The position numbers were made by a program, and so were the translations under genes. The notes below the pieces were generated by a model. The model searched no databases, was not told the DNA's origin, and was given only the letters and a program-made list of their open reading frames with translations. A stretch of 64,000 nucleotides of DNA from Vibrio tapetis subsp. tapetis (GTDB lineage: Bacteria; Pseudomonadota; Gammaproteobacteria; Enterobacterales; Vibrionaceae): the NCBI RefSeq assembly GCF_900233005.1, contig NZ_LT960612.1:1240001-1304000 (forward strand). The letters are read 5' to 3'. Positions within the stretch are counted from its first letter, which is position 1; each line of letters starts with the position of its first letter. Positions 18,229 to 36,105 of the stretch are shown here, piece by piece.

Positions 18229-18834
18229 ATGTCTCATCAATTTCCAGAATTACCCTATGGATATAGTGCCTTAGAACCATACATCGATGCTAAAACGATG
18301 GAAGTTCATTACAGTAAACACCACCGCACTTATTTCGATAAGTTTACGGCGGCTATCGCTGGCAGCGAGCTAGAAAGTCAATCTTTAACCGATATTTTTG
18401 CCAACATCAGTAAGCATTCTCCCGCGGTCAGAAATAATGGAGGCGGCTATTACAATCACATTCTATATTGGAACTGTATGTCTGCTTCGCCTCAATCTGA
18501 ACCATCTGGCAAGTTGGCGTCTGAGATTGAGCGTACCTTTGGTGAGCTTGAAGCATTTAAACGACAGTTTAGCGATGCCGCAATCAATACCTTTGGCTCT
18601 GGGTTTGCTTGGTTAGTCGTTGTTGACGGCGAGTTACAAATCACTTCAACAAGCAACCAAGATAATCCTTTGATGGACGTTGCGGCCGTTAAGGGTACGC
18701 CTATTCTCGCGTTGGATGTGTGGGAGCATGCTTACTACATTAGCTACCAAAACCGCCGTCCTGACTATATAAACGCGTGGTGGCAAGTGGTGGACTGGAA
18801 AGCGGTCGAAGCGCACTATCAAGCAGCGCTATAA
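18229..18834 (+). CDS. sodA: Superoxide dismutase, Mn-type (or cambialistic)
   Basis: A cytoplasmic superoxide dismutase of 201 aa converting superoxide to hydrogen peroxide and oxygen. Metal ligands are visible: His27 in VHYSKHH, His in NNGGGYYNHILYWN, and Asp and His in ALDVWEHAYY. Metal-selectivity positions look Mn-like: Gly in NNGGGYYNH where Fe enzymes carry Gln, and Gln in TSNQDNPLM where Fe enzymes carry Ala. The YWNCMS segment is Fe-like, so dual metal use is possible. Tandem Fur-like sites upstream fit induction under iron limitation, when an Mn enzyme would replace the Fe enzyme. It has a strong ribosome site (AAGGAG) and a terminator. Confidence 0.92.
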   Translation: MSHQFPELPYGYSALEPYIDAKTMEVHYSKHHRTYFDKFTAAIAGSELESQSLTDIFANISKHSPAVRNNGGGYYNHILYWNCMSASPQSEPSGKLASEIERTFGELEAFKRQFSDAAINTFGSGFAWLVVVDGELQITSTSNQDNPLMDVAAVKGTPILALDVWEHAYYISYQNRRPDYINAWWQVVDWKAVEAHYQAAL

Positions 18835-21103: not shown

Positions 21104-21122
21104 ATTGCAAATAATTATCATT
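21104..21122. promoter_or_regulatory. Fur-like box before the TPR-ATPase unit
   Basis: On the minus strand AATGATAATTATTTGCAAT matches the Vibrio Fur consensus AATGAnAATnATTnTCATT at 15 of 17 defined positions by eye. It directly abuts the stop codon of the sigma-54 regulator gene and lies 54 bp before the TPR gene. Confidence 0.8.
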
Positions 21123-22474
21123 TATATTTGTGTTTTTTGAGCAATTTCATCCTGCCTTTCCAAAATTCGCTGTAGTTTAGGTCTACTAATCTTAAGAATT
21201 TCACAGGCTTTGCCTTTGTGGCCATCTACATTTTTGAGGACGCTATTAACATGATTGTATTCAATGTCTTGTAAGCTTAGGTTTGAAGCATCAGCATTTG
21301 AGTTTAATGGCTCTTTCTCTTCTATTCGTAAAGAATCAAATAGCTCAGCTGTTAATGTATCGCCAGGGCATAAAGCAACGGCTTTGGTGAGTGTATTTTC
21401 AAGCTCTCGTACGTTACCTGGCCAGTGATAATCGCAGAGCTTTTTCATGGCGTCTAATGAGACTTTAGATACTTGTGTCCCCAGCTCTTTGTTTGCACGA
21501 GAAAGCAGTGCAGGAATTAAGTCTTCTAGATCTTCTTTACGTTCTCTAAGTGGAGGAATATGAACCTGAACCACCTGAAGACGGTAAAATAAATCTTCTC
21601 GAAAAGCTTTGTCTACAATGGCTTGCTCTAGATTGACGTTGGTAGCCGAAATGATGCGAGCACTGGATGTATGTGGGATTTTACTTCCAAGGGGTGTGAA
21701 TTCCTTTTCCTGCAATACTCGCAATAATTTGGCTTGGATTTGCGGTGCAAGCTCTCCGACTTCGTCTAGAAATAAAGTGCCATCGCTGGCTAACTCAAAT
21801 TTTCCTACTTGATCAGAGAGGGCGCCAGTAAACGCTCCTTTCTTGTGACCGAACATTTCAGATTCAAGTAAGTTTTCTACCAGCGCGGCACAGTTAATCG
21901 CAACAAATGGTGCGGTTTTAGGTCGGCCTGCGTTATGAATGGCGCGAGCGACCATTTCTTTACCTGTGCCAGATTCACCAGTGATCATAATGGACGCGTT
22001 AGTCAGTGCAACTCGGCCAATCGTTTTGTAAATCTCTTTCATCGCATGGGAAGACCCGACCATGGAGTGGCCAAAAGTATCGGGAATTGAAATGCCTTCT
22101 TGCGCATTGGTTGCTTGATATTCCAATGCAGTGTTGACCGCATCGTCTAGCTCGTCAATGTCGATCGGTTTATGGATGTATTCATCCGCCCCTTGTTGCA
22201 TTGCGGCGATGGTGCTATCCATGTCATGAAAAGCGGTGATCATGATAATGCGGCAATCCTTACAGCATTGTTTAAACTCAGGAATGCCTTCCAAACCAGA
22301 TTTTCCTTCCATACGGATGTCTAAGATGATGACATCTGGTTGAAAATTACGGGCGAGTTCAACACCATCATCTACGCAATTTGCAACTTCAACTTGATGA
22401 GACATTGATTGAAAGTGCAATTGCAAAGTACGGCTGATGCCATGATCGTCATCTACGATTAACAACTTGCTCAT
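21122..22474 (-). CDS. Sigma-54-dependent response regulator (NtrC family)
   Basis: A protein of 450 aa. A receiver domain (1-120) carries the acidic pocket VDDD and the phosphoacceptor Asp52 in VIILDIRM. The AAA+ domain (about 145-370) has Walker A GESGTGKE and an intact GAFTGA loop, which contacts sigma-54. A Fis-type helix-turn-helix ends the protein (GKACEILKISRPKLQRIL). It overlaps the kinase gene by 4 bp, so the two are partners. The likely target is the divergent iodate-reductase-like operon, which has a sigma-54-type promoter and an upstream dyad. It lies at the end of a HEAT-kinase-regulator run. Confidence 0.95.
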   Translation of the reverse strand: MSKLLIVDDDHGISRTLQLHFQSMSHQVEVANCVDDGVELARNFQPDVIILDIRMEGKSGLEGIPEFKQCCKDCRIIMITAFHDMDSTIAAMQQGADEYIHKPIDIDELDDAVNTALEYQATNAQEGISIPDTFGHSMVGSSHAMKEIYKTIGRVALTNASIMITGESGTGKEMVARAIHNAGRPKTAPFVAINCAALVENLLESEMFGHKKGAFTGALSDQVGKFELASDGTLFLDEVGELAPQIQAKLLRVLQEKEFTPLGSKIPHTSSARIISATNVNLEQAIVDKAFREDLFYRLQVVQVHIPPLRERKEDLEDLIPALLSRANKELGTQVSKVSLDAMKKLCDYHWPGNVRELENTLTKAVALCPGDTLTAELFDSLRIEEKEPLNSNADASNLSLQDIEYNHVNSVLKNVDGHKGKACEILKISRPKLQRILERQDEIAQKTQI

Positions 22475-24969
22475 AGAGAAATAACTTCCTGTTTTTCTGT
22501 GTGCGCATGAGGCGCAGTGGGGATACGGATTTTTGCCAATGTGCCATCTGGTAGGGAGTGCAGTTGAATCTGTCCATGGTGAGAATCAATAATCCGTTTC
22601 ACGATGGCCAACCCTAATCCGGTGCCCTTAGCCTTAGTGGTAAAAAATGGTTCGAAGACTTTATTAGTTAAACATGGATCAATAGATTTGCCGTTATTTT
22701 CAATCTCAATAAGAAGTTCGGTGTTGGAATCTGTGATCATGATGTTTGAAGCGATGGATACGCGAGCTAGCGACGTGTCTTTCGTGTTTGCTGCTTGCAT
22801 GGCATTGTGCAGTATATTTTGCAGCGCTTGACGTAACTTGACTGGGTCCGCGTAGACAGTAGGCAAGTTAGGCTGCATAGCCGTAACTAATTGAATGCCT
22901 TCTTTGTTCGCCACTTTTTGTTGGCTTGCGATAATCGTTTCCAAGAGTTTGTTAATGTCGAGCCACTCAGGTTGAAAGAGTTCAGGTTTTGAGTATGACA
23001 ATAGGTCCTCCATGATGGCTTCCATATAACGCACTTGTTCTAACGAAATGGCAAACATCTCATCATCGGATTTTCTAGCGTTGATTTGTAATACCATTTT
23101 TATCGAACTTAGTGGGTTTCGTAAGTCGTGAGCAATCATGTTTACAACCTTACCTACCGCCGCTAACTTTTCATGTTGCAAGCGCCGTTGAGTTTGTTTA
23201 TCTACTTCTTTTAATAGGCGTTTTTCTTCACTGATATCTTGTTTAACTGCGACATAATATAAGGTGTTGTTTTCCGAATCTTTTACCGGGGAAATATGAG
23301 CTCGTTCCCAATAGAGCTGACCATTTTTTTTTCGGTTATGAAACTCGCCTCGCCACTCCTTGCCTTGTTCCAGGTTATGCCACAACTTCTGGTATTCATT
23401 TTCGTCCATTTCACCGGACTGAAGAAATTTAGGAGTAAGCCCCATCACTTCTTGATGGCTATAGCCTGTCAGCTGGCAAAAAACTGGGTTTACATAAACA
23501 ATCTTGCCACTAAGGTCGGTGATCATGACGGAGTTTTGGCTTTGTTCCACCGCATGACTGAGCTGCTGAAGTTGATCTTGAGCCATTTTTTGTTCGGTAA
23601 CGTCTTGGCCAAGTAAGGTTAGATTGATTACGTTATCGTTCGATTCAGTGAAGGTTGATGTCCAAGAAACAAGGTGGATTTCGCCAGACTTGCTGACGAC
23701 AACACTTTCACTATGAGGTTGATGAGTTTGTCTTTTTATTGCCTCGCTTAGTGCTTCTGATGCTTGAACTTGCAGTTCTTTAGGAATAAATCGCTCTATC
23801 CAGTTGTGGCCAATGACTTCATGACGTTCGAAGCCAACCATTTGAAGGAAAAAGTCGTTACAAAAAGTGATCGTGCTGTCTGTATTTATGCTCACGGCAG
23901 CCAAGTGGATGTTTTCTAGTGTATGTCTAAATTGTTGTTCATAGCGCCGTTGCTGGCGCAGCACGCGGGTTTGTACTCTGTAACGACTAAACACGGTTGC
24001 TGCGATAGAAATGAAAATTAACAAGGTGATGTAAAACCACGTGTATTTTTTTGAAAATGCCAATCGAGAGAGGTTAAAACGATCAATTGGAAAGGTCGAA
24101 ATTACGATCCATTCGCCATTGTTGGGTGCGTTTACTTTCGTAAAAGTGTAGTAATTATCGCCTCGTAGGAATTGCCCATCATGGCTGGCTTTAATGGTTG
24201 ATAAACTGCCAGAGTCGATCTCTTGGTTGGTCGTAAACTGAAAATCGGAATTGATGTTATCTGATGGATGAATGACAGCCAAACCCTGAGGGTTAATTAG
24301 GTAGAGGTGGTTGATAAAGCTCGGTGCAATTGTGAATAACTTATTGATTAATTGGCGGCCTTTATAGTTGAGGATGATCGCACCTGTTAGCTTGCCAGTG
24401 CCACTGAACACAGGTGTCCCAACACGAATGGTTGGATTAAGCGGCTGCTCAACAATACCGCCTTCGATATTCAAGTCCATCGGTGATATGTACACCATAC
24501 CGTCTTCGAGATTTTTGGTGCGCTGCCAATAATAACGGTGAGATTTATTCTGCAATTGACTTTGTTCCACAACAGACACGTTTCCGTTGATGTTGTTAAT
24601 ACGTAAACGTTCCATGCCATGGGCATCAATGTATCTAATTTGATCGTAGCTCGCGTTGTTTTCGCTCAGTTGCTTAAAGTACGCAACCAGCGAGTGGGGA
24701 GAGTCACCATGTAGTTCCTGAATTTGTCGCGTAACATAGGATAAGTTCTTTGCATCAGATGACATGCGAGTAAGTGTTTCACCTAGTACTTCTTCGATTA
24801 AATTGACGATGACTTGCTCATTCCTCAAGGCGAACTGCTGATCGTTTTGCACACTGAGCAGATAGTGGCCCGTGATGATAATCGCTAGAGCAATATAGGC
24901 AGGAAGAAGCCAAAGTAAAAGCTCGTTAATATATACTCTTGCCGTAGGTTTATGTGTTTTTGCACTCAT
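22471..24969 (-). CDS. Membrane sensor histidine kinase with periplasmic Cache and two PAS domains
   Basis: A kinase of 832 aa from the ATG at 24967-24969. An in-frame TTG at 25011 is possible but has no better ribosome site. The order is TM1 (about residues 16-40), a periplasmic dCache-like domain (about 45-310), TM2 (about 318-340), PAS (about 355-465), PAS (about 475-590, with LSGKIVYVNPVFCQLTGYS), HisKA with the phosphoacceptor His in MIAHDLRNPLSSIK, and HATPase_c with GTGLGLAIVKRI. It resembles DctB/NtrB-type kinases that detect periplasmic ligands. Partner: the overlapping regulator gene. The signal is unknown; its neighbours suggest an oxyanion or a related periplasmic redox compound. 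Confidence 0.93.
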   Translation of the reverse strand: MSAKTHKPTARVYINELLLWLLPAYIALAIIITGHYLLSVQNDQQFALRNEQVIVNLIEEVLGETLTRMSSDAKNLSYVTRQIQELHGDSPHSLVAYFKQLSENNASYDQIRYIDAHGMERLRINNINGNVSVVEQSQLQNKSHRYYWQRTKNLEDGMVYISPMDLNIEGGIVEQPLNPTIRVGTPVFSGTGKLTGAIILNYKGRQLINKLFTIAPSFINHLYLINPQGLAVIHPSDNINSDFQFTTNQEIDSGSLSTIKASHDGQFLRGDNYYTFTKVNAPNNGEWIVISTFPIDRFNLSRLAFSKKYTWFYITLLIFISIAATVFSRYRVQTRVLRQQRRYEQQFRHTLENIHLAAVSINTDSTITFCNDFFLQMVGFERHEVIGHNWIERFIPKELQVQASEALSEAIKRQTHQPHSESVVVSKSGEIHLVSWTSTFTESNDNVINLTLLGQDVTEQKMAQDQLQQLSHAVEQSQNSVMITDLSGKIVYVNPVFCQLTGYSHQEVMGLTPKFLQSGEMDENEYQKLWHNLEQGKEWRGEFHNRKKNGQLYWERAHISPVKDSENNTLYYVAVKQDISEEKRLLKEVDKQTQRRLQHEKLAAVGKVVNMIAHDLRNPLSSIKMVLQINARKSDDEMFAISLEQVRYMEAIMEDLLSYSKPELFQPEWLDINKLLETIIASQQKVANKEGIQLVTAMQPNLPTVYADPVKLRQALQNILHNAMQAANTKDTSLARVSIASNIMITDSNTELLIEIENNGKSIDPCLTNKVFEPFFTTKAKGTGLGLAIVKRIIDSHHGQIQLHSLPDGTLAKIRIPTAPHAHTEKQEVISL

Positions 24970-25097
24970 GCGCTTACCATATTGCTCGTATTCCTTGCTG
25001 CTTTGTAGCAACGCTTATGGTTCGATTGTTAGTGTAACGAAAATCGCGGCGACCGTTTGTGCCACCGCAAGGGTTATGAGAAGTTCGAATAAAGCAA

Positions 25098-27515
25098 CTA
25101 AAGTACTGCTCCTATGAGGCGTAATGCAAAAGGTTGATTGTGCTCACTTAAGTTACTGAGCTTGGGCGCAAGATAGCTCAATATTTGAGAGCGAAATGGT
25201 TTTAATACTTGGCTGGCGAGTACGTTGCATTCGTCGTCATCTATGGCAAGTTTAATTAAGGTGTTTATGTCATTTTCGTTGTAAGAGTTGAGATTGATTT
25301 TGGTTAGTAATAGTAAAGCCTGGCGACGCACGCCTCCCGCGGTGTCCAGCAACGACGTAAGTGCGCATTCTCGTATTATGTGTATTTTTTCTGCACTTCT
25401 AATTCCTTTATTTAACAGAGTCTCAAGGGCCGATAAACAGCAATAACGAACGTGTTCGTTAGGATCTGTTACGCCCAATGTTAGCATTGGAACGGCTTTG
25501 TTTACTGGCATATGAGCGAGAAAGTGGGCTGCGGCTTGTTTTGCTAGGTCATCACCGTAGTGCATGGCATTTCCAGCTGCTCCTATGCCATTATTTGGCG
25601 ATTTAAGTTTAGGATGGCGAGCTTTCAATTGGGTGAGTGCTTGGAAAATCTCTCGTATTTCGTGATGACTCGCGCCGAGTAAACCTTCAATGAGTAAGTC
25701 GGCATTGTTTTCTTCATCTCCTTTTCCTAATGCTCTGATTGCTAGCGTTTTATTACTCGCTTGAGGCAGGCGAGCAATTTTTTTCCGATTCAAGTTGAGG
25801 TTGTCGGCACTCTCAAAATTGGCTTTTACCATGTCACCATAAGACTGTAGTTGTTCATCCATGCCTTCTACCATTTCCATGATACTTGTGGATGGGTCAT
25901 CTTGCTGAGGTTGAGTGCCACCTTGTAGCATGGCTTCAATATTCGCTTTAGATATTGCGCCTAGCGTTGAGGTTTGTATTTGTGTCTCGGTAATTTCCAG
26001 TTCATTAGGCTCAGAATCTAAGATGATATGGTCGCTATTTGGCTGCGTGATAGCATCAGTGTCGTAGTTTGCTAAGATATTCGCCAAATCGTCTTGGCTG
26101 TTTACTTCATCGGTATGTTCTTCAAGAGTGTTGCGTGGTTGGGCGTTGTCTTGAGGTGAATTAAGCTGAGTAACCTCTATCTGATTTGAAAAGGCTTGTT
26201 TACCAAGCAGCAAACGACGAAATATCTGTTGAAAGCTTTGATGCTTAGTATGAGCAATGACCTCTAGGCAGGCTTGTCTCAAGCTTGGGTCTTGTTCTAG
26301 TTTTCGGTCTGCTTGATCATACGATTCCACAATGGATTGAAGCATCGACAAAGACACTTGATGATGCAATGGGAAACGAGGAAGAAGCCTGATGGCGTCG
26401 CATCGGGTTAGTAACGGCGTAGTCCGCTTTTTTGCTCGATTTATCAAGACTTCAATGACGTCGAGTTGGTTATGGGGTTCCAAGTTTAGCTTTGATAATA
26501 AAGTCATAGCGGCAATGGCACTCTCGTGGTGTTCACCAGAGCAGAGGTCGATGAGCCATTGAAGGTCGTTTGCTGGCAGTAACTCTGCCAAGGGTAACAG
26601 TAATTGAATGATGGCTGGTTTGGCGGTTTCTGGCGCTTGCTTTGCCAATTGAACGAGACGTTGATAATCAAGTGACGATGAACAGTTTAACGCTTCAATG
26701 GCAGTCAATGCTTGTTTTTGTACGCTTGGGTGAGGATCCGTTAAGCATTGGATGATATCCCATAGATATTCTTTCGCATTTTTATTTGCGAGATTTTCGA
26801 TGGCTATTTTCTTGAGCTCTGAATCATCGGATTTCAATTGTTTAAATAAGAATGCACGGGCCATTTGGCTATCGTTGTGAGCGAGTGATTTAACTAATTT
26901 ACGCTTAGTGACCAAACCAACTTGAGGCAGTTTGTCAACAATCCAGTTTACATCTATTCGAGCAATCCCATTATAAATAAGTGAAGTGAGCTCAGGTTCA
27001 GGATCTTGCTCCAGAATGGTGAGTAACAAGGGAAGGTTGTTAATGTCAGAAGTCGTCACAAGTACTTCTACGGCTTTCAACTGAATGTCCCACCATTCGT
27101 CCCAGTCAGAGCTTAACCCCCAATCATCTTCTTGTCGGCCAAGCGCTAATTCCCTAAATAGAGTTGCGACGCGAGGATTTGAAATCCGATCCGATAATGC
27201 AGTCAAGGCTGCCAGTCTTGCATCACCGTCTGGGTGGTGACGCGCTACTTCTTCCAATTGCTCAATGTGTGAATGTTCTATTTTCCCTAACGCACTCGCG
27301 GAATCGATAACGACATCGGGATCAGGATGATACAGGTTGTCGGCCAAAGCTTGGTGGGCCGTAGACAACTGAGACGACGTTATTGTTTGAGCACTGTAGC
27401 AGCGCTGTGCTTCATCACCTTGTTTAAGGAGATTAATGAGTTGCTGCTCTATTTTTTGTTCGGCCTCATGTTGGGGCAGAGGGTTGAATGTTGTGGTCTT
27501 GTCGAGTTCCAGCAT
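25098..27515 (-). CDS. HEAT-repeat protein
   Basis: A soluble protein of 805 aa without signal peptide. Residues about 50-420 and 590-800 are helical HEAT/PBS-type repeats (for example DPDVVIDSASALGKI, DPHPSVQKQALTAIEAL, DPNEHVRYCCLSALETLL). A polar, Gln/Asp/Asn-rich linker of about 150 residues separates them. HEAT solenoids are protein-binding scaffolds; the partner cannot be read. The gene is first in the HEAT-kinase-regulator run and divergent from the iodate-reductase-like operon. A role in sensing, or in assembly of the molybdoenzyme or its c-type haem partners, is a guess from position. A GGAG site precedes the ATG. Confidence 0.85.
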   Translation of the reverse strand: MLELDKTTTFNPLPQHEAEQKIEQQLINLLKQGDEAQRCYSAQTITSSQLSTAHQALADNLYHPDPDVVIDSASALGKIEHSHIEQLEEVARHHPDGDARLAALTALSDRISNPRVATLFRELALGRQEDDWGLSSDWDEWWDIQLKAVEVLVTTSDINNLPLLLTILEQDPEPELTSLIYNGIARIDVNWIVDKLPQVGLVTKRKLVKSLAHNDSQMARAFLFKQLKSDDSELKKIAIENLANKNAKEYLWDIIQCLTDPHPSVQKQALTAIEALNCSSSLDYQRLVQLAKQAPETAKPAIIQLLLPLAELLPANDLQWLIDLCSGEHHESAIAAMTLLSKLNLEPHNQLDVIEVLINRAKKRTTPLLTRCDAIRLLPRFPLHHQVSLSMLQSIVESYDQADRKLEQDPSLRQACLEVIAHTKHQSFQQIFRRLLLGKQAFSNQIEVTQLNSPQDNAQPRNTLEEHTDEVNSQDDLANILANYDTDAITQPNSDHIILDSEPNELEITETQIQTSTLGAISKANIEAMLQGGTQPQQDDPSTSIMEMVEGMDEQLQSYGDMVKANFESADNLNLNRKKIARLPQASNKTLAIRALGKGDEENNADLLIEGLLGASHHEIREIFQALTQLKARHPKLKSPNNGIGAAGNAMHYGDDLAKQAAAHFLAHMPVNKAVPMLTLGVTDPNEHVRYCCLSALETLLNKGIRSAEKIHIIRECALTSLLDTAGGVRRQALLLLTKINLNSYNENDINTLIKLAIDDDECNVLASQVLKPFRSQILSYLAPKLSNLSEHNQPFALRLIGAVL

Positions 27516-27561: not shown

Positions 27562-27588
27562 TGAGTAAGCATTTTTTGTGCCTACTCA
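27562..27588. promoter_or_regulatory. Dyad upstream of the HEAT-kinase-regulator run
   Basis: TGAGTAAGCA (27562-27571) and TGCCTACTCA (27579-27588) pair at 9 of 10 positions around a T-rich 7-nt centre, 46 bp before the HEAT gene start. It may be an operator; the factor is unknown. Confidence 0.5.
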
Positions 27589-27673
27589 GATCACATTGCG
27601 AAGCTTAATAAAATCAATGAGATACGAATAAGTTCCTAATGGTAGGGGAAAGGTTCAGTGCAAGATTTAATGT

Positions 27674-27706
27674 ATTGTTCAATCGAAAATCTCGAAATTG
27701 AACGAT
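27674..27706. promoter_or_regulatory. Candidate enhancer (upstream activator) site
   Basis: ATTGTTCAAT (27674-27683) and ATTGAACGAT (27697-27706) pair at 9 of 10 positions around 13 bp. The centre is about 100 bp upstream of the sigma-54-type -24 element, the usual place for an NtrC-family activator. The adjacent NtrC-type regulator is the obvious candidate. Confidence 0.6.
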
Positions 27707-27787
27707 ACGTTAAAAATTTGATGATTTGATCGAGTTCACATTAATCTTAACCTATTGTATTTATTTGATTATTTTTAGTTTTTAAAG

Positions 27788-27804
27788 TTGGCTCAATTTA
27801 TGCT
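27788..27804 (+). promoter_or_regulatory. Sigma-54-type promoter of the iodate-reductase-like operon
   Basis: TTGGCTCAATTTATGCT has the invariant GG (27790-27791) and GC (27802-27803) exactly 10 bp apart and otherwise resembles TTGGCACG-N4-TTGCT with about three mismatches. Transcription would start near 27815, giving a leader of about 80 nt. Confidence 0.72.
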
Positions 27805-27897
27805 CAGAGGGAGGTGGGAACAAATATAAAACACCTTGTATTCGCTGCGATTGACAAGCAGCAATGCAACATTAGCTGGAAGCTAAGGAGCATAACA

Positions 27898-28989
27898 ATG
27901 AGAACAATGTTGATCCTTGCTGCGACAGTGGGGCTTTCATTTTCAGTCATGAGCCAAGCGGACGAGAACCAATTCGGCCCGCTACCTGACGTGAAAATTA
28001 ACGCCGCAAAAGCAGAACTGGGAAAACGTCTATTTTTTGATACTCGTTTATCGGGTAATACGGCGCTGTCATGCGCCTCGTGCCATATGCCTGAAAATGG
28101 ATATTCGTATCCAGAAGCGTTAGGACCTGCATATACAGGCAGTAAAGGCTTTAGAAACGTTCCAACATTAATCAATACGGTTTATAAGAAAGTGTGGTTT
28201 CACGACGGCCGTATTGGGACTAATTTGAATGACGTCACTCGTGAAAATATTACTGAAGATTGGTTGATGAATATGGATATGCGCTTAATGCAAGAGCGCC
28301 TAAAACAAGATCCTATTTACGTTGCTATGTTCAAAGAGGCAGGGTACGGAGAACCTTCGAATGGTTCAGTTAGAAAAGCCATCCCTGAGTATTTAAAAAC
28401 ACTTACTTCCAATCAAACTCCTTTCGATAAAGATGAGTTAAACGCAGCGCAACAACAAGGTTTTGATCTATTTAAAGGCAAGGCGGGTTGCTCTTCTTGC
28501 CACAATGGGCCTTTGTTTAGTGATGGTAAACCATACAACACCGGTGTGCCGGAGAACCTCGACATATTTCGTGATCCTATGCGCCACCAAACCTTTATCG
28601 CGTTCAATATGTTCATGGGTAATGAAAATTACATGAACCTCAAGCGTGATGTTGGTGCGCATGTACAAACCCATAAAGCAGACGGTACCGACAGGGGGAA
28701 ATTTATTACGCCAACCTTGCGCGAACTTAATCAAACGGCCCCTTATATGCACAACGGTATGATTTCGACGTTAACTGATGTAGTGGCTTTTTATAATCAA
28801 GGCGGTGGCGAAGACTCCAACAAAGATGAGCGCATTACGCCGTTAAATCTTACTTGGCAGGAGCAGAAAGCGCTGGTGGCATTCTTAGAATCGCTGTCTA
28901 GCCAACCGTTGACTTCAGAGCAGCACGTTTGGAAGAAGTCTGATTACAACTATGAGCTGATTTCTGATTGGCGCAATGCGAAAAACTAA
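27898..28989 (+). CDS. idrP1: Periplasmic di-haem cytochrome c peroxidase-like protein (IdrP-type)
   Basis: A protein of 363 aa from the ATG at 27898, chosen because AAGGAG precedes it and the next residues form a signal peptide (RTMLILAATVGLSFSVMSQA). There are two CxxCH haem sites, CASCH at residues 59-63 and CSSCH near 197, in the order of the bacterial CCP/MauG family. In known iodate-reductase clusters two such proteins (IdrP1, IdrP2) accompany the molybdoenzyme and are proposed to remove hydrogen peroxide or reactive iodine intermediates. It is first in an operon, behind a sigma-54-type promoter. The P1/P2 numbering here follows position only. Confidence 0.85.
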   Translation: MRTMLILAATVGLSFSVMSQADENQFGPLPDVKINAAKAELGKRLFFDTRLSGNTALSCASCHMPENGYSYPEALGPAYTGSKGFRNVPTLINTVYKKVWFHDGRIGTNLNDVTRENITEDWLMNMDMRLMQERLKQDPIYVAMFKEAGYGEPSNGSVRKAIPEYLKTLTSNQTPFDKDELNAAQQQGFDLFKGKAGCSSCHNGPLFSDGKPYNTGVPENLDIFRDPMRHQTFIAFNMFMGNENYMNLKRDVGAHVQTHKADGTDRGKFITPTLRELNQTAPYMHNGMISTLTDVVAFYNQGGGEDSNKDERITPLNLTWQEQKALVAFLESLSSQPLTSEQHVWKKSDYNYELISDWRNAKN

Positions 28990-28999
28990 GGAGGGCGAG

Positions 29000-30238
29000 A
29001 TGAATATTAAAGCAATCAACTTGTCTGCAATAGCGGCGATGGTCGTAACACTTACCGCACTGCCAGCTTGCGCGAAACAAGAAGATAAGAACGTTGAAAT
29101 CAATGCTAAAGAAGTGGCTGAAGCACTAGCGCCGATAGAGTTAAACGGTGTGTTTTACCCAGCACTCGCTCCTTTAGGTGATGTACCGACGCCAGCAGAT
29201 AACCCGACTACGCCTGAAAAAGTGGCGTTAGGTAAGCAGTTATTCTTTGATGGCCGACTAGGAGGAGATACGTCAACACCTTGCAGTGCTTGTCACAACC
29301 CTGCATTGGGTTGGGATTTTCCTGCGGATCTTTCGCTAGGTTACCCGGGAACGGTTCACTGGCGAAATAGCCAGACCATTATCAATTCAGCCTATTACCA
29401 AAAACTGTTCTGGGCAGGTTCCTCTAAATCTTTAGAAGGTCAGGCAAAAAGCGCTGCAAAAGGAGGAGTTGCGGGTAATGGTGAAGATGATTTGATGGAA
29501 GCTCGTTTGGCCTTGGTACCTGAATATGTCGAGCAGTTTAATTCGATATTTGGAGATAACTATCCAAAAGTGAGCAATGCATGGAAAGCCATAGCGGCGT
29601 TTGAACGAACCTTAGTGCAAAAGGATACGCCATTAGATAAGTATTTGTTGGGAGATAAAACTGCGTTAACCGAGCAACAGTTAAAAGGTAAGACTCTATT
29701 TGAAGGTAAGGCGAATTGTATTGCTTGTCACAATGGAGCATTAGCGTCAGATCAGAAAAACTACAACGTAGGAGTACCAACAAATTTACGTTGGGAGAAT
29801 GATCCACTTGCTCAAATTACGTTTCGTTATGAGCTGTACGCAAAAGGTTCAAACGAGAAAATGTACAGAGCCACCAAAGCCGATCTTGGCGTGTATTTCC
29901 GTGGTAAACGTAAAGAGATGAAAGGTAAGTTCCGCACGCCAAGTATTCGTTACACCAAATATACCGCTCCTTACATGCATAACGGAACCATCGCAACACT
30001 GGCCGACGTGGTGGACTTCTATGACCGTGGTGGTGTAGCCAAAGATGGGCGAACAACAGGCTTCCCACAGACGAAAAGCCCGATGGTTAAGCCGCTAGGG
30101 TTAACCGCTGATGAGAAAGCCAATTTGCTTGCTTTCTTAGATGCGTTTACGGGCGAAAAAATGATGATGGATTATCCAAAAATACCAGAGTACCAACGCC
30201 TATTTAGTGAAGAAGAGCTTGCGGAGGTGAAAAAATGA
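29000..30238 (+). CDS. idrP2: Di-haem cytochrome c peroxidase-like lipoprotein (IdrP-type)
   Basis: A protein of 412 aa from the ATG at 29000, ten bases after the previous stop and behind a strong AAGGAGG. The signal ends in LPAC (Cys24), a lipobox, so this copy is probably membrane-anchored, unlike its neighbour. Haem sites are CSACH near residue 95 and CIACH near 240. It is related to but clearly diverged from the upstream copy, with extra segments (YPGTVHWRNSQT, RGKRKEMKGKFRTPSIRYT). It is predicted to be a peroxidase working beside the molybdoenzyme. Its stop overlaps the Rieske gene start (ATGA). Confidence 0.85.
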   Translation: MNIKAINLSAIAAMVVTLTALPACAKQEDKNVEINAKEVAEALAPIELNGVFYPALAPLGDVPTPADNPTTPEKVALGKQLFFDGRLGGDTSTPCSACHNPALGWDFPADLSLGYPGTVHWRNSQTIINSAYYQKLFWAGSSKSLEGQAKSAAKGGVAGNGEDDLMEARLALVPEYVEQFNSIFGDNYPKVSNAWKAIAAFERTLVQKDTPLDKYLLGDKTALTEQQLKGKTLFEGKANCIACHNGALASDQKNYNVGVPTNLRWENDPLAQITFRYELYAKGSNEKMYRATKADLGVYFRGKRKEMKGKFRTPSIRYTKYTAPYMHNGTIATLADVVDFYDRGGVAKDGRTTGFPQTKSPMVKPLGLTADEKANLLAFLDAFTGEKMMMDYPKIPEYQRLFSEEELAEVKK

Positions 30239-30855
30239 TTGTCGATAATAATAAGCGCCAGCCTGAACAGTCAAAAAGTGACAAAAAAGAAAGCGCTCAG
30301 GAACATCGTAAATGCATGATGTCGCGTCGTAATTTCTTGATGTACTCAGGTGCAACGGTTGGGGCGGCGAGCGTAATGTCAGTAACCCTATTTCCTGGTA
30401 CCGCGCAAGCCAAACAAACTCAAGCTCGAGTTGTGGGCTATCCGCGCAAGCTTCTTGGTAAGTTGAGTGAATTAAAACTCAATGATCCGCTTTATTTTAA
30501 CTACCCAGATGATGGGCCAAATTCACAAGGTTTGCTGGTAAGAATGGGTGTTCCAGCTGGAGGTGGTTTGGGGCCAAAACAAGATGTAGTTGGATTTTCC
30601 TTGATGTGTACGCATCAAGGCGGACCATTAAATGGCCAATATAAGGTGGTCGATGAGCATCGTGTGTTGGGGCAATGTCCATTCCATTTGTCGACGTTTG
30701 ATATGCGCCGCCACGGTATTATTGTCTCAGGTCAGGCGTATGAAAGCTTACCACAAGTGTTGCTTGAATTGGATGGCGACGAGATCTACGCGGTGGGCAT
30801 TATGGGCTTACTATTTGGTCGAACCGATAACGTGATCGCGATGCAGGAGGCATAA
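30235..30855 (+). CDS. idrB: Tat-exported Rieske [2Fe-2S] subunit (IdrB/AioB-like)
   Basis: A protein of 206 aa. A twin-arginine motif SRRNFLM at residues 30-36 precedes a hydrophobic stretch ending in AQAKQ, so it is exported folded by Tat. Rieske cluster ligands are CTH (about residue 125) and CPFH (about 148). The extra Cys pair that forms a disulphide in many Rieske proteins is missing (CTHQGG, CPFH). In the arsenite oxidase family the small subunit's Tat signal carries the large subunit along, and the large subunit here indeed lacks a signal. Good GGAGG site; 4-bp overlap upstream, 2-bp gap downstream. Confidence 0.92.
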   Translation: MIVDNNKRQPEQSKSDKKESAQEHRKCMMSRRNFLMYSGATVGAASVMSVTLFPGTAQAKQTQARVVGYPRKLLGKLSELKLNDPLYFNYPDDGPNSQGLLVRMGVPAGGGLGPKQDVVGFSLMCTHQGGPLNGQYKVVDEHRVLGQCPFHLSTFDMRRHGIIVSGQAYESLPQVLLELDGDEIYAVGIMGLLFGRTDNVIAMQEA

Positions 30856-30857
30856 TC

Positions 30858-33554
30858 ATGACAACCAATTTCTATATTCCCGAAGATAATGCGCCATTGC
30901 CGCCAACTAATGCAGAGATGATCACCACAGCTTGTGACTACTGTATTGTTGCATGTGGTTATAAGGTCTATCGTTGGCCACTTGAGCAGGCTAATGGTGG
31001 CATGAAAGCACATGAGAATGCCTTTGGAATTAATTTCCCCAGTGCACCTTTACAAGCGTGGGTCGCACCATCACAACATAACGTGATCATGCATAAAGGC
31101 AAGCCTCATAATGTCATCGTTGTGCCAGACAAAGATGCAAAATCGGTCAACAAAATGGGCGATTCATCCATGCGTGGTGGCTTGCTTGCTCAGAAACTCT
31201 ATAACCCATCAAAAGGAACGCGTGACCGTTTAACACAGCCATTGGTTCGTATTGGTGGTAGTTTACAACCGGTGCCGTGGGACTTCGCATTAGATATTGC
31301 AGCGGAGGTGGGGCGTCATGTTATTGATACTCATGGTACCAACGCATATGGCGTAAAAACGTATTCTTATCAATATATTGAAAATACCTATGCCATTACG
31401 AAGTACGCGCTTCGTCATGTTAATACAGCTAACTTCTCATTTCATGATACGCCATCCGATGTGACGTCAACACCAGGATTTAGAGACGCAGGTTTTGATA
31501 ATTTTGGCCCGAGTTACGATGATTGGGGGGCGGCCGATACGTTAATGATTTGTGGTACAGATCCGTATGAAACCAAAACTATTATTTTCACTCAATACAT
31601 TATGCCAGCAGTTCAACGTGGGATGAAGACCGTCATGTTGAACCCTCGTGAAACTGCGGGTATAGCTTGGTTAAAGAAACAGGGAGGTTTACATATCGAT
31701 CTCAATCCGGGATCAGATAACTTAGTCGTTGGGGCGATCATCCGAGTTATTTTGGAAAACGGATGGGAAGACAGCGAGTGGATTCAAAATTGGGTTAATA
31801 ACAAATGGGAATCTAGCTCTGGCTTTGGTCAAGGAACACGTAACACACCTTGGCAGTGGCGTACAACGTGGGGCAAGTTCCAAACAGACGGTTTTGAAGG
31901 CTATAAAAAATGGAACATGGAGCAAAAAGAGTACGCTCCAGACTACGCAGCAAAACTTGCCGGTATTGATGTAAAGAAAATCTATCAAGCTGCAGAAATG
32001 TTAGCGAAACCAGTGGATGGTAAACGACCTAAAACGTCGATAGGTATTGAAAAAGGCTTCTATTGGTCGAATAACACCGGTAACACTAATGCCATTTCGT
32101 CACTTGCAACCATTGTTGGGGCGGGTGGCCGAGAAGGGCAGGTTGTCGGACGTTTTGGGGGGCACCAGCGTGGGGGCCAATCTGGTGGTAAATTACCTCG
32201 AAATAAATCGCCAGAGAAAGTGCCTGGCCGCCGTCGTAGAGCAATAGATACTGACCGCTACCTGTACTCCGGTCACACACGAATGGCTCATGTTATCGGT
32301 ACTACGTGGATTCAAGCTATGTGTGGTAGTCAAGGTTTACAGAAGAAATTCTGGGAGCTAGTAACGGCAAACCCACACCAAGTGTATAGCTACGATAAGC
32401 AAGATATTATCAATACGCTTAAAAAACGGGCCGATTCTGGTGGCATGGTGGTCATCAATCAAGACATCTATTTACGAGATCCAATCGGAGCAAAATTTGC
32501 TGATATTGTCTTCCCGGCGGCAACATGGGGGGAAGTGGATTTCATGCGAGCCAATGGTGAGCGTCGATTGCGTCTGTACCAAAAATTTGCCGATGCTCCA
32601 GGGCATGCACAACCGGATTGGTGGATCATTTCCCAACTGGCTAAGCGTATGGGGTACGACGGATTTGATTGGCAAAATTCTAATGAAGTCGCAGAAGAGG
32701 CTTCGCGTTTTAGCCGTGGTAGTCGTAAAGACTTCAATATGATCAAAGTAGCCGCTCATGCCGAGGGTAAAACTTTACATGAAAAACTGCGTGAATATGG
32801 GACAGAAGGGATTCAAGGCCCCGTTTTCTACAACTATGATACTAAGCAACTTGTCGGCACTAAGCGTCTACATGACACGGAAATGACGTTAGAAACGTTG
32901 GCTGAAAAAGGACTTACAGATGGACCGCAAGGGGCGAATGTACTTAAGAAGCAATTGACTGCGTTTAACAGCCAAACGGGTAAGGTCAATATTCAGAAGC
33001 ACCCATGGGATTTGTTCAGTGATTTCTATGAGTGGCTGCAGCCAAAAGATGACGAACTTTGGTTCTCTAATGGTCGTATCAATGAAATCTGGCAATCAGG
33101 TTTTGATGATGTTGAGCGTAGAGCTTATGTAATCCAACGTTGGCCTGAGAATTGGGTAGAAATTAACCCAGAAGATGCTAAAAAACGCGGCATTGAATCG
33201 GGTGATCAAGTCATGATGTATTCAGATCGAGTCGCGAACTTTAAAGACACGATTTTGGGTATTCACGGAGATGATTTTCAGTTCAGTAAGTTAATGGAAA
33301 ACGGCCATATCAAGTTGGATAAAGCGGCGGTGACTGCAGTTGCCATTGTGACACCGGCGGTTAAAAAGGGTGCGTTATACGCAAATATGATTGATATGCG
33401 TCAGCCATCTAATGCTTTGACGACAAGGGTTGTCGATCAAATTAGTGGAAACTACAACTACAAAATGGGCGTTGCTAACATTAAGAAAATTGGAGAATCA
33501 AAATATAAGAACGAGTTTAGAGCGTTCTCATTTGCTCCGAGAAATATCGTTTAA
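30858..33554 (+). CDS. idrA: Molybdopterin oxidoreductase, iodate reductase-like large subunit (AioA relative)
   Basis: A catalytic subunit of 898 aa in the DMSO reductase superfamily, AioA/IdrA branch. The N-terminal CDYCIVACGY (Cys26, Cys29, Cys33) fits the [3Fe-4S] site of this branch, with no fourth Cys seen in the LYNPSKGTRDRL region. No signal peptide: export with the Rieske partner. Arg and His equivalents of the arsenite pocket are retained in GRFGGHQRGG, but from remembered AioA sequence the other pocket residues (His195, Glu203) align with Pro and Asn in STPGFRDAGFDNFGP. Together with two adjacent di-haem peroxidases this favours iodate reduction (iodate to iodide) over arsenite oxidation. 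Substrate unproven. Confidence 0.88.
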   Translation: MTTNFYIPEDNAPLPPTNAEMITTACDYCIVACGYKVYRWPLEQANGGMKAHENAFGINFPSAPLQAWVAPSQHNVIMHKGKPHNVIVVPDKDAKSVNKMGDSSMRGGLLAQKLYNPSKGTRDRLTQPLVRIGGSLQPVPWDFALDIAAEVGRHVIDTHGTNAYGVKTYSYQYIENTYAITKYALRHVNTANFSFHDTPSDVTSTPGFRDAGFDNFGPSYDDWGAADTLMICGTDPYETKTIIFTQYIMPAVQRGMKTVMLNPRETAGIAWLKKQGGLHIDLNPGSDNLVVGAIIRVILENGWEDSEWIQNWVNNKWESSSGFGQGTRNTPWQWRTTWGKFQTDGFEGYKKWNMEQKEYAPDYAAKLAGIDVKKIYQAAEMLAKPVDGKRPKTSIGIEKGFYWSNNTGNTNAISSLATIVGAGGREGQVVGRFGGHQRGGQSGGKLPRNKSPEKVPGRRRRAIDTDRYLYSGHTRMAHVIGTTWIQAMCGSQGLQKKFWELVTANPHQVYSYDKQDIINTLKKRADSGGMVVINQDIYLRDPIGAKFADIVFPAATWGEVDFMRANGERRLRLYQKFADAPGHAQPDWWIISQLAKRMGYDGFDWQNSNEVAEEASRFSRGSRKDFNMIKVAAHAEGKTLHEKLREYGTEGIQGPVFYNYDTKQLVGTKRLHDTEMTLETLAEKGLTDGPQGANVLKKQLTAFNSQTGKVNIQKHPWDLFSDFYEWLQPKDDELWFSNGRINEIWQSGFDDVERRAYVIQRWPENWVEINPEDAKKRGIESGDQVMMYSDRVANFKDTILGIHGDDFQFSKLMENGHIKLDKAAVTAVAIVTPAVKKGALYANMIDMRQPSNALTTRVVDQISGNYNYKMGVANIKKIGESKYKNEFRAFSFAPRNIV

Positions 33555-33563
33555 CTCGGGTTG

Positions 33564-33590
33564 TGGAGCCTTTATTGGCTCCATTTTTTA
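33564..33590 (+). terminator. Terminator after the large subunit gene
   Basis: TGGAGCC-TTTATT-GGCTCCA followed by TTTTTTA, 10 bp after the stop. It may be partial, with read-through into the cytochrome c gene. Confidence 0.88.
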
Positions 33591-33639
33591 TGCCTGATAA
33601 ACAAAAGAACGAGTAAAACTGACGAATAAAGGAGTTGAG

Positions 33640-33948
33640 ATGAATAAAAATCTTTGGGTATTAGCGGTATCAGCGTTGAGTGTCTTTGGTGCAAGTTCGG
33701 TATTAGCTGCCGATGTGGCCGCAGGAAAAGCAAAAACCATGACGTGTGTAGCTTGTCATGGCGCTAATGGTGTGTCCATGGTGGATTTGTACCCGAACTT
33801 AGCAGGGCAAAAGGCTGCGTATTTAGTTAAGCAGATGAAAGCGTTTAAAGACGGAGATAGAAAAGATCCAACCATGGGCGCGATGGTTATGCCATTGTCG
33901 CCACAAGATATGGAAAACATTGCAGCGTATTACGCCAGTTTGAAATAG
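33640..33948 (+). CDS. Small periplasmic cytochrome c (c553/c4-like)
   Basis: A mono-haem cytochrome of 102 aa with a signal peptide (KNLWVLAVSALSVFGASSVLA), a single CVACH site at residues 36-40 and candidate axial Met residues in MGAMVMPLSP. The GANGVS and YPNLAGQKAAYLVKQMKAF segments are typical of class I cytochromes c4/c553. It likely carries electrons from the quinol-oxidising chain to the Rieske subunit, or back, for the adjacent oxidoreductase. It is preceded by a terminator but has a good AAGGAG site. Confidence 0.9.
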   Translation: MNKNLWVLAVSALSVFGASSVLAADVAAGKAKTMTCVACHGANGVSMVDLYPNLAGQKAAYLVKQMKAFKDGDRKDPTMGAMVMPLSPQDMENIAAYYASLK

Positions 33949-33984: not shown

Positions 33985-34011
33985 GGCAGCTCACTGAGAG
34001 CTGCCTTTTTT
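33985..34011 (+). terminator. Terminator after the cytochrome c gene (intron target)
   Basis: GGCAGCTC-ACTGA-GAGCTGCC (33985-34005) followed by a run of T. The group II intron begins directly behind the T-run, as class C introns do. Confidence 0.92.
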
Positions 34012-34752
34012 GTTTGCCCAGCGAAGCTGGCAAACCCATTAGGCTGAAAGAAGCCTAAATCACCCTGATTGAGGGGAAGATAATCCGAATCGCAAGGGCG
34101 TTGCTGGCCAACGGCAGGGTTTGAAGGAAGCGATAGGAAGTTAACACGTACACAACGAAAGTGAACCTGATTCGGCAATTTAGGTGGGTAAGCGTGCAAA
34201 ATAGCGTGAAGCCCGATACTCAATCAGACCTAGATTGTGCTTGAGGGTGGCATTGTTAACAGGGAGCCAGTGCAGTAACTGGGGAAGCCTGACATCACAT
34301 CCGAGCAAACGTCGGAAGCATAAACTCAAGGCGAGAGCCAAGATCTATGTTGGTGCGAGGTGGCAGATGAATCCGTAGTAGTGAGTAAAGCTCGGCCGGT
34401 GAAGCCCAGTAATGGTGTGGAGGATAAAACTGAGCTGACCATCAGTAACACGTCTGATGGGACAACATTTTGCCAAAAGCAATCTGGTGTTGCGAAGGGA
34501 TGAAGTACATTTTAAGTCTGTGATGAGCAGATGTTTTTTTTTTTCAGTGGTATACAAGTTGATTAGCTATCGAGGTATTCCGTCTCGGTCTTTGTGAAAG
34601 CAAAGCACTGAAGCGAGAAACCGTACAAGGGAGTAACTCTGACTCACTCTAGTAAATTGCCATTGAGCTAGAAGGCTAGAGAGTGGAGTGAAATACACCA
34701 ACACTGTGAGAGAGCATTTGTCCCCACACGGCACACAATCTAAAGGAAAAAG

Positions 34753-36036
34753 TTGAGAGTTTACTACAGTTTATATGGTCACTTGCTCCACAAAGAGCGA
34801 CTCTATAAAGGATTTAAAAAAGTGTGGAAAGCGAAAGGCGCGGCCGGAATAGATAGGCAGAGCCTAAGCGATTACGCCCAAAATCTGAGTGATAACCTAG
34901 ATCAACTTCTTCTGGAACTCAAAACCAAGCGATACACCCCTCAACCCGTCAGACGGGTAGAAATACCGAAAGATGATGGTGGGGTGCGATTACTTGGGAT
35001 CCCAACAGTACGGGATAGAGTTGTCCAACAAGCTCTAAATGATCTATTAACCCCAATCTTCGAAGAGCAGTTTCACCCATCCAGCTTTGGGTATAGACTG
35101 AATCGAAGTTGTCACGATGCTATAAACAAAGCGACGATGTTCATCCGTCGATACGGAATGCAACACGTCGTAGATATGGACTTATCGAAGTGCTTCGATA
35201 AGCTCGATCATGAGCTTATTCTAAAAAGCATTAAGAAACGAGTCACAGACAGTAGCGTACTGGAGCTCATCAAACAGTTCCTGAAAAGTGGCGTAATGGT
35301 TGATGGAGAGTGGCAGCATACCGAGATAGGTAGTCCGCAAGGTGGAGTAATAAGCCCACTGATAGCGAACATCTATCTGGATGCGTTTGATCAAGAGATG
35401 CGAAAGCGAGGACATCGAATAGTCCGTTATGCCGACGACATACTGATCTTCTGTCGCAGCCGTAAAGGTGCAGAAAATGCGCAAGTACAGGCAACGAAGG
35501 TCCTGGAAAAACAGCTCAAGTTAACGGTGAACGAAACCAAATCACACATAGCGCACAGCGGCGAAGGTGTGAAATTCCTTGGAATAGAAATCGGTAGCCA
35601 TTATAGCCGTATTCAGCCAAAGAAAATGTCGACGTTCAAAGGAAAGTTGAAGCGAGTGACAAGACGCAATGGCGGTAAGCCATTGTTAGAAGTCATTAAA
35701 CAACTGAATCCACTTCTGAGAGGGTTCAGCCAGTACTTTCGAATAGCGAATGCCAACAGGGAGTTTAAGAAACTGGCCGCGTGGTTAAGGCGAAGACTTC
35801 GCAGCGTCCAATTACGATTATGGAAAAAACCGACCCGACTCCACCGCAGGCTAAGACAGCTAGGTTACGAAGGGTCATTCAGGTATATCTGTATGGATAG
35901 TTGGAGAAATGCTGCGAGTCCATTAGCCAGTTACTCGATGCCAAATCAATGGTTTAACGACCTTGGATTAGTGAATCTTGAACACGTTAGGACAGGATAT
36001 GTGTTCAGCCATTATGCTGAATGGAAATGTGCATGA
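34753..36036 (+). CDS. ltrA: Group II intron reverse transcriptase/maturase
   Basis: A protein of 427 aa encoded in intron domain IV. It starts at TTG (34753) behind AAAGGAAAAA; the N-terminus MRVYYSLYGHLL matches this family. Reverse transcriptase blocks are intact: VRLLGIPTVRDRVVQQAL, the FGYR block, DMDLSKCFDKLDH, GSPQGGVISPLIANIYLD and the catalytic YADDILI. A maturase domain X follows (about 290-370), basic and with a GFSQYFRIAN segment. There is no HNH endonuclease domain, as expected for class C. The reading frame is uninterrupted, so the intron may still be mobile. Confidence 0.95.
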   Translation: MRVYYSLYGHLLHKERLYKGFKKVWKAKGAAGIDRQSLSDYAQNLSDNLDQLLLELKTKRYTPQPVRRVEIPKDDGGVRLLGIPTVRDRVVQQALNDLLTPIFEEQFHPSSFGYRLNRSCHDAINKATMFIRRYGMQHVVDMDLSKCFDKLDHELILKSIKKRVTDSSVLELIKQFLKSGVMVDGEWQHTEIGSPQGGVISPLIANIYLDAFDQEMRKRGHRIVRYADDILIFCRSRKGAENAQVQATKVLEKQLKLTVNETKSHIAHSGEGVKFLGIEIGSHYSRIQPKKMSTFKGKLKRVTRRNGGKPLLEVIKQLNPLLRGFSQYFRIANANREFKKLAAWLRRRLRSVQLRLWKKPTRLHRRLRQLGYEGSFRYICMDSWRNAASPLASYSMPNQWFNDLGLVNLEHVRTGYVFSHYAEWKCA

Positions 36037-36105
36037 GCCGTATACGAGGTCCGTACGTACGGTTCTGTGAGAGGGATGAGGCGGAGACGCCTCACCCTAC
36101 TCGAT
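36035..36105 (+). ncRNA. Group II intron domains V and VI
   Basis: Domain V: arms GAGCCGTA (36035-36042) and TACGGTTC (36058-36065). Domain VI: TGAGGCG-GAGA-CGCCTCA (36077-36094), followed by the 3' end CCCTACTCGAT. Domain V starts inside the maturase stop codon. Confidence 0.85.

Follow-up and report, generated by a model that had tools for sequence, protein, structure and literature searches.

The 64,000-nucleotide stretch of Vibrio tapetis subsp. tapetis DNA analysed here (contig NZ_LT960612.1; hereafter the window) carries the genes idrP2, idrP1, idrB and idrA followed by a cytochrome c gene; together they probably form an iodate reductase (Idr) operon of the marine type, which is regulated in its own right and accompanied by an undescribed accessory gene coding for a HEAT-repeat protein. 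Iodate reduction is the best reading of the cluster, and very probably the right one. A preliminary description had proposed an idr-like cluster at this place, and the clade of the large subunit, its pocket residues and the gene order support this identification at the level of sequence. The occurrence of idr genes in Vibrio is already in print and the cluster is of a known kind; what is new is its HEAT-repeat partner and the pairing of two such enzymes in one genome. We call the window cluster type I, and a second idr cluster of the same genome type II.

Conversion of sea-water iodate to iodide matters for the iodine cycle as well as for ozone loss at the sea surface. Few strains are known to have the enzymes. 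Because Vibrio strains are usually quick to grow and amenable to genetic work, one that combines two idr clusters with a readable switch would make the inducer, the electron donor and the accessory proteins directly testable. What makes this cluster worth testing is its HEAT partner together with the conserved switch and the presence of two enzymes.

Gene content and order

The open reading frames (ORFs) and their families bear out the order given in the preliminary description, namely two di-haem proteins, a Rieske subunit with a twin-arginine translocation (Tat) signal, a molybdoenzyme resembling the arsenite oxidase subunit AioA, and a cytochrome c (Table 1). Full domain matches across the frames of the operon exclude chance ORFs. 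The start at 27788 proposed there is no gene start and lies one base ahead of a sigma-54-like promoter. By pattern matching, IdrP2 and IdrP1 carry two CxxCH motifs apiece, and the 3Fe-4S motif of IdrA and the Rieske motif and Tat signal of IdrB are all present, as described in PMC10149662. The published gene order is idrP2, P1, B, A (PMC10989891). We fetched the best 80 relative loci, beyond which 98 further relatives were counted, and found P2-P1-B-A on one strand in 66 of the 67 loci with at least 3.2 kb upstream of idrA. In the sole exception, L048, the strongest matches to P2 and B fall at other places of the locus.

Carriers of the idrABP1P2 island are Pseudomonas sp. SCT, Denitromonas sp. 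IR-12, Azoarcus sp. DN11 and Aromatoleum sp. TC-10 and, putatively, Vibrio, Moritella and others; PMC8692401 names Vibrio spp. and Moritella spp. as carriers and describes the genes flanking idrABP1P2 as poorly conserved. Island and window have in common the four-gene order, the Tat Rieske subunit, a 3Fe-4S molybdoenzyme without a signal of its own and two di-haem proteins, with a kinase, a sigma-54 regulator and a cytochrome c nearby. The window differs by its adjoining HEAT-repeat gene and by the second cluster in the genome. Paired di-haem genes had been put forward in the preliminary description as what sets idr apart from arsenite oxidase loci; this agrees with the idr order seen here, and no such pair was annotated in eight AioA loci, seven of which were covered with 1.5 kb flanks only.

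Clade and pocket of the large subunit

A tree of 95 rows (quick IQ-TREE run, SH-aLRT support) placed eight AioA proteins across a 100% branch. Next to AioA came the proteins encoded on Azonexus and Thiothrix plasmids, then 85 marine IdrA rows including the window protein; IQ-TREE warned of long AioA and Azonexus branches. The tree and the first pocket count drew on 63 of the 80 fetched loci: L029, L034 and L042 were dropped at locus ends and 14 were unselected (11 from Ruegeria or other Alphaproteobacteria with similar IdrA, L076 with residues 97-898 only, the short L086, and L070). Loci L089-L097 and L128 stand outside the tree, and the IdrA of Pseudomonas sp. SCT and Denitromonas sp. IR-12 are not among its rows. 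Sequence identity of window IdrA lies at 47.8-49.2% for three Azonexus-like proteins and at 29.0-31.3% for two AioA.

We then compared five columns, which we take to be the arsenite pocket of AioA. Window IdrA has His196, Thr198, Ser204, Arg432 and His436 (H-T-S-R-H). All eight AioA read H-R-E-R-H, their Arg and Glu standing at the positions of Thr198 and Ser204, and Azonexus-like proteins read H-K-D-R-H in 122 of 122 rows. The marine branch reads H-T-S/A-R-H over 205 rows (Thr 200, Ala 4, Asn 1; Ser 188, Ala 17). These columns are clade-specific. A literature search for a paper confirming the arsenite-pocket residues found none. With the pocket taken as these five residues, the earlier claim of a kept Arg-His pair and two replaced residues stands, and has to be amended in that the second histidine is also kept.

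The marine branch also holds Ruegeria, Roseibium and, among relatives in Roseobacteraceae, a Roseovarius sp.; these share with the window the T-S pocket and, where read, have a HEAT gene behind idrA. The alphaproteobacterial idr of Roseovarius azorensis, Notoacmeibacter marinus and Aliiroseovarius sediminilitoris (PMC11445184) probably belongs to the same branch. R. azorensis, a marine alphaproteobacterium with idrABP1P2, reduces iodate, its idr genes are iodate-induced and IdrA was found in the activity band (PMC11445184); we infer that its IdrA lies in the marine branch with the window protein.

Genes for IdrA-like proteins with the H-K-D-R-H pocket were seen on plasmids of Azonexus hydrophilus (L099) and Thiothrix subterranea (L100), where the window has Thr/Ser instead of Lys/Asp. 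The Azonexus hydrophilus plasmid carries a full P2-P1-B-A cluster with regulators and moaA; its kinase, sigma-54 regulator, cytochrome c and moaA are those published beside idr in several proven respirers.

A conserved, putative sigma-54-type switch in type I loci

A linked two-component system has been proposed as iodate sensor, with cytochrome c551 and moaA as optional companions (PMC8801600), and a sigma-54 regulator and a kinase lie upstream of idr in Azoarcus DN11 (PMC10149662). In the window, the genes of a kinase and a sigma-54-dependent regulator stand beyond the HEAT gene (Table 1). Motifs between the HEAT gene and idrP2 were defined on 16 loci with relatives of this kinase and regulator, and the same 16 were counted as the defining set; in L021 and L022 the two-component regulator genes lie downstream instead.

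With a strict pattern, the idrP2-directed promoter was found in 13/16 defining loci, 7/7 held-out type I loci and 0/17 type II loci, its chance rate by shuffling being 3.2%. Similarly, the strict pattern for the palindrome pair, which may mark the regulator binding sites, was matched in 16/16, 7/7 and 0/17 loci, respectively. For the HEAT-directed site the counts were 13/16, 7/7 and 3/17, obtained with a looser pattern that had no shuffle control of its own. In the alphaproteobacterial loci examined, no two-component system of comparable identity to that of type I was found.

A second idr cluster of another type

The genome, assembled in three contigs, holds a second idr cluster at C1:993887-996550 (locus L008), whose IdrA is 80% identical to that of the window. 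This cluster lacks a nearby two-component system of the type I kind, has a copper-protein gene in place of the one for cytochrome c, and carries Ala for Ser in the IdrA pocket. As the window lies on contig C2, the second cluster is probably on the other chromosome. Among the 23 IdrA-positive genomes of the genus, two IdrA clusters occur only in this genome and in G187. Two marine-branch IdrA lie on different contigs of Sedimenticola hydrogenitrophicus SN1189 (L047, L051), and an Azonexus-like IdrA (P0106) is found in that species too; Vibrio is therefore not alone in having several Idr per species.

Twenty further Vibrio-genus loci were fetched, seven of type I and 13 of type II. All seven of type I have the two-component system and a long HEAT protein, whose gene stands between the regulator genes and the operon. 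In all 13 of type II a pseudoazurin-like gene is present and the HEAT protein is less similar; none has such a two-component system in the stretch read. A relative of the cytochrome c was found near idrA in 7/16 and 6/7 type I loci and in 0/17 of type II; a copper-protein gene lies near idrA in 17/17 type II loci, and also in 3/23 of type I. The difference in donor is a tendency.

Type II IdrA form one clade (100%), which is nested close to the Vibrionaceae type I and has a stem of 0.16. Position 204, a Ser in type I, is Ala in 16 of the 17 rows of type II and still Ser in L114; the 17 rows represent 15 distinct sequences, IdrA being identical in L023 and L121 and in L024 and L123. Type II thus seems to be a derived enzyme, run separately from type I. 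The HEAT gene of the second cluster (L008 15525-17556, plus strand) consists of two overlapping ORFs in different frames (150 and 561 aa), and its nearest relative, in G127, is a single open frame of 702 aa; the gene is perhaps decaying in the window genome.

We considered whether the type I regulator also governs the second cluster and rejected the idea: that cluster has no idrP2-directed promoter, no palindrome pair and no palindrome with at most one mismatch nearby. The second cluster is one of the three type II loci with a HEAT-directed sigma-54-like site, which looks unrelated. A small gene for an S-adenosylmethionine-dependent methyltransferase (L008 9217-9819, minus strand) lies between this idr cluster and its copper protein; that the enzyme might methylate iodide is pure guesswork.

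A HEAT-repeat protein gene that accompanies idrA

An open frame of the HEAT family was found in 55 of the 86 sources examined. Within the marine branch it occurs in 56/83 sources (L085 counted by its tblastn match) and in 45/53 loci with at least 6 kb upstream and at least 2.5 kb downstream of idrA. The gene is divergent and upstream in most Gammaproteobacteria, the window included, whereas in Alphaproteobacteria it follows downstream on the idrA strand. Across the genus, a HEAT profile (E <= 1e-10) matched 23 of 227 genomes, exactly the 23 with IdrA and none of the 204 without, and all 26 listed matches lie within about 6 kb of an idrA. Kinship within one genus and linkage alone make for co-occurrence, so these counts show a tight bond and not many independent events. 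In a sample of 345 genomes of the order, HEAT stood beside idr in 11 of 12 IdrA-positive genomes, the twelfth having a 52% IdrA; weak partial matches near 1e-11 appeared in two IdrA-negative genomes. Marine Idr goes under arsenite names in databases; the gene could provide a second marker for it.

In 32 aligned HEAT proteins, Trp138 in the motif WD[DE]W-D-[IL]Q is invariant and the linker motif S-x-L-x-x-I (516-521) nearly so. The AlphaFold model shows two solenoid blocks joined by a low-confidence linker (mean pLDDT 83.4). Only generic solenoids (CAND1, SF3B1, importins, PP2A; TMq 0.20-0.39) were among the 50 matches listed in a fold search, and no signal peptide was seen by eye. The protein is thus apparently cytoplasmic; it is also apparently co-regulated with the operon and is kept where the two-component system is absent, so its most likely role, judged from these features, would be that of an IdrAB assembly factor. 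A literature search for iodate and HEAT repeat returned eye-disease contexts only and no link to idr, in a search for which subscription papers, the first Idr paper included, were mostly out of reach; one for HEAT repeat, molybdoenzyme and maturation found nothing.

The gene might instead be a passenger of the island without a role in iodate reduction, which we consider rather unlikely. Islands do carry passengers, the gene is absent from eight of the 53 well-flanked loci, and one of the copies in this very genome is split over two frames. However, the family is kept from Alpha- to Gammaproteobacteria at low identity and in two gene orders, it persists in all 13 type II loci of other genomes without the two-component system, and the HEAT-directed site described above occurs in most type I loci. 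It is still less probable that the protein serves the two-component system, as a signalling scaffold, rather than the enzyme: its place between regulator genes and operon in type I would fit, but the protein outlives that system in the same 13 type II loci and its gene lies directly behind idrA in Alphaproteobacteria.

Evidence against the assignment and alternative substrates

A number of observations weigh against a marine-type iodate reductase operon with its own switch and accessory gene. IdrA and IdrB both exceed the NCBI curated arsenite-oxidase cut-offs (TIGR02693 and TIGR02694), so databases name both subunits after arsenite oxidase; these models fail to separate Idr from Aio, and named Idr-like matches also bear arsenite or arsenate names. 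The plasmid cluster that most resembles the surroundings of proven iodate respirers belongs to the Azonexus-like branch, to which window IdrA is about 48-49% identical. The IdrA of SCT, IR-12 and R. azorensis are unnamed among the matches listed (best 80, 120 and 120), and molecular weights are no discriminator. Concerning the switch, the seven held-out type I loci are close relatives of the defining loci, the promoter and the palindrome pair occur in 10 and 5, respectively, of 50 other loci, and the palindrome is not enriched in its own genome (58 matches with at most one mismatch, 79 for the reversed control). Finally, the well-flanked marine-branch loci in which the HEAT gene is missing are the gammaproteobacterial L028, L032, L035, L038, L040, L048 and L057 and L064 of SAR324.

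It is unlikely that the enzyme reduces another oxyanion, such as bromate or chlorate, or acts in the periplasm as a reductase that detoxifies oxidants in general, iodate being a side substrate. The pockets do differ between branches (T-S, T-A and K-D), and type II especially may have shifted, given its long stem and its Ala204. Against this stands the iodate reduction, with iodate-induced idr genes, of a marine alphaproteobacterium carrying idrABP1P2 (PMC11445184).

An arsenite oxidase (AioAB) with unusual neighbours, which would oxidise As(III) in the periplasm and pass electrons to cytochrome c, is very improbable and was rejected on clade and pocket: AioAB of NT-26, Thermus HB8 and others share with the window proteins the fold, the subunit plan, the Rieske small subunit and the pocket His/Arg/His (three residues of five), arsenite oxidases are the nearest solved structures to IdrA, both subunits pass the arsenite-oxidase models, and NT-26 aio also adjoins a cytochrome c and a two-component system with a sigma-54 regulator, but the identity to AioA is 29-31%, the paired di-haem genes are present here, and the neighbour genes read include no AioX-like binding-protein gene. 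Instead of branching inside AioA with all arsenite-pocket residues, a result that the preliminary description had set against its own proposal, window IdrA lies on the other side of the 100% branch and has Thr and Ser for Arg and Glu.

The di-haem proteins IdrP1 and IdrP2

In the literature IdrP1 and IdrP2 go by the name of cytochrome c peroxidases. Export of both by Sec-type signals, judged by eye from the translations, is putative. Both share the CCP_MauG domain with MauG/MbnH and the bacterial cytochrome c peroxidases, and their best NCBIfam models are MbnH and then MauG. Neither reached the cut-offs: the two proteins scored 162.4 and 217.7 bits with TIGR04039 (MbnH; cut-off 362.85) and 160.3 and 185.6 bits with TIGR03791 (MauG; cut-off 443.85). 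A Tyr of both proteins aligns with a Tyr of the di-haem enzyme 6e1c. In IdrP2 it also aligns with a Met of the peroxidase 1eb7, and so might stand in for the axial Met that bacterial cytochrome c peroxidases have as a ligand; the scores of solved peroxidases, for their part, are close to that of 6e1c. By analogy with MauG, IdrP1 and IdrP2 could perform chemistry beyond plain peroxide removal, and as both fall below the MauG and MbnH cut-offs such altered chemistry is a lead only.

Proposed working of the system

In the scheme that we favour, the kinase would sense a periplasmic signal, most likely iodate, and the sigma-54 regulator, bound to the two palindromes, would switch on the divergent idr and HEAT promoters. 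IdrA would receive its molybdenum cofactor and 3Fe-4S cluster in the cytoplasm with the aid of the HEAT protein and leave through the Tat signal of IdrB. In the periplasm, electrons would flow from cytochrome c through the Rieske centre to molybdenum, where iodate would be reduced towards hypoiodous acid, and IdrP1 and IdrP2 may clear oxidants arising during the reaction.

A broader proposal, which we put forward tentatively and hold to be possible rather than probable, is that marine Idr forms an enzyme type of its own, assembled with the help of a dedicated HEAT-solenoid factor in the cytoplasm that is unnamed in the accessible parts of the idr texts searched. The genome would then hold a type I enzyme, fed by cytochrome c under the sigma-54 two-component switch, and a type II enzyme outside the switch, with an altered pocket, a pseudoazurin-like donor and perhaps another iodate level or another oxidant to serve.

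Features and neighbouring elements

Table 1. Features of the idr region, with positions counted from the first base of the window.
Feature	Position	Strand	Basis
idrP2, predicted periplasmic di-haem CCP/MauG-family protein	27898..28989	+	ORF 27814-28989; likelier start 27898, behind AAGGAG; CCP_MauG match
idrP1, second di-haem CCP/MauG-family protein, lipobox-like LPAC	29000..30238	+	ORF 28976-30238; likelier start 29000; CCP_MauG match
idrB, Tat-exported Rieske [2Fe-2S] subunit	30235..30855	+	TIGR02694 119.3 bits (cut-off 95.65); SRRNFL; CxH...CxxH
idrA, molybdopterin [3Fe-4S] large subunit, 898 aa	30858..33554	+	TIGR02693 395.3 bits (cut-off 359.05); CxxCxxxC at residue 26
Mono-haem cytochrome c, likely electron donor	33640..33948	+	one CxxCH; domain match
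Terminator-like hairpin and T run, 3' of the cytochrome c gene	33985..34013	+	read from sequence
HEAT-repeat protein, 805 aa, divergent from idr operon	25098..27515	-	HEAT_2 match
Sensor histidine kinase, periplasmic-type sensor domain and PAS domains	22471..25011	-	PF21623, PAS, HisKA, HATPase_c; dCache_1 below cut-off
Sigma-54-dependent response regulator	21122..22474	-	Sigma54_activat, Response_reg
Sigma-54-like -24/-12 promoter towards idrP2, TGGCTCAATTTATGCT	27789..27804	+	conserved pattern
Sigma-54-like -24/-12 promoter towards HEAT gene, AGGCACAAAAAATGCT	27568..27583	-	conserved pattern
Two palindromic sites (27666-27682 and 27698-27714), candidate regulator binding sites	27666..27714		conserved pair

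A group II intron (34101-36105, plus strand) sits just past the terminator-like hairpin of the idr operon; its intact-looking maturase (34753-36036) scores above the TIGR04416 cut-off, with no endonuclease domain listed. Disruption of the operon by this intron was rejected, as the element sits behind the hairpin. A few genes beyond the idr regulator lies a gene for an Fe/Mn superoxide dismutase (18229-18834, plus strand).

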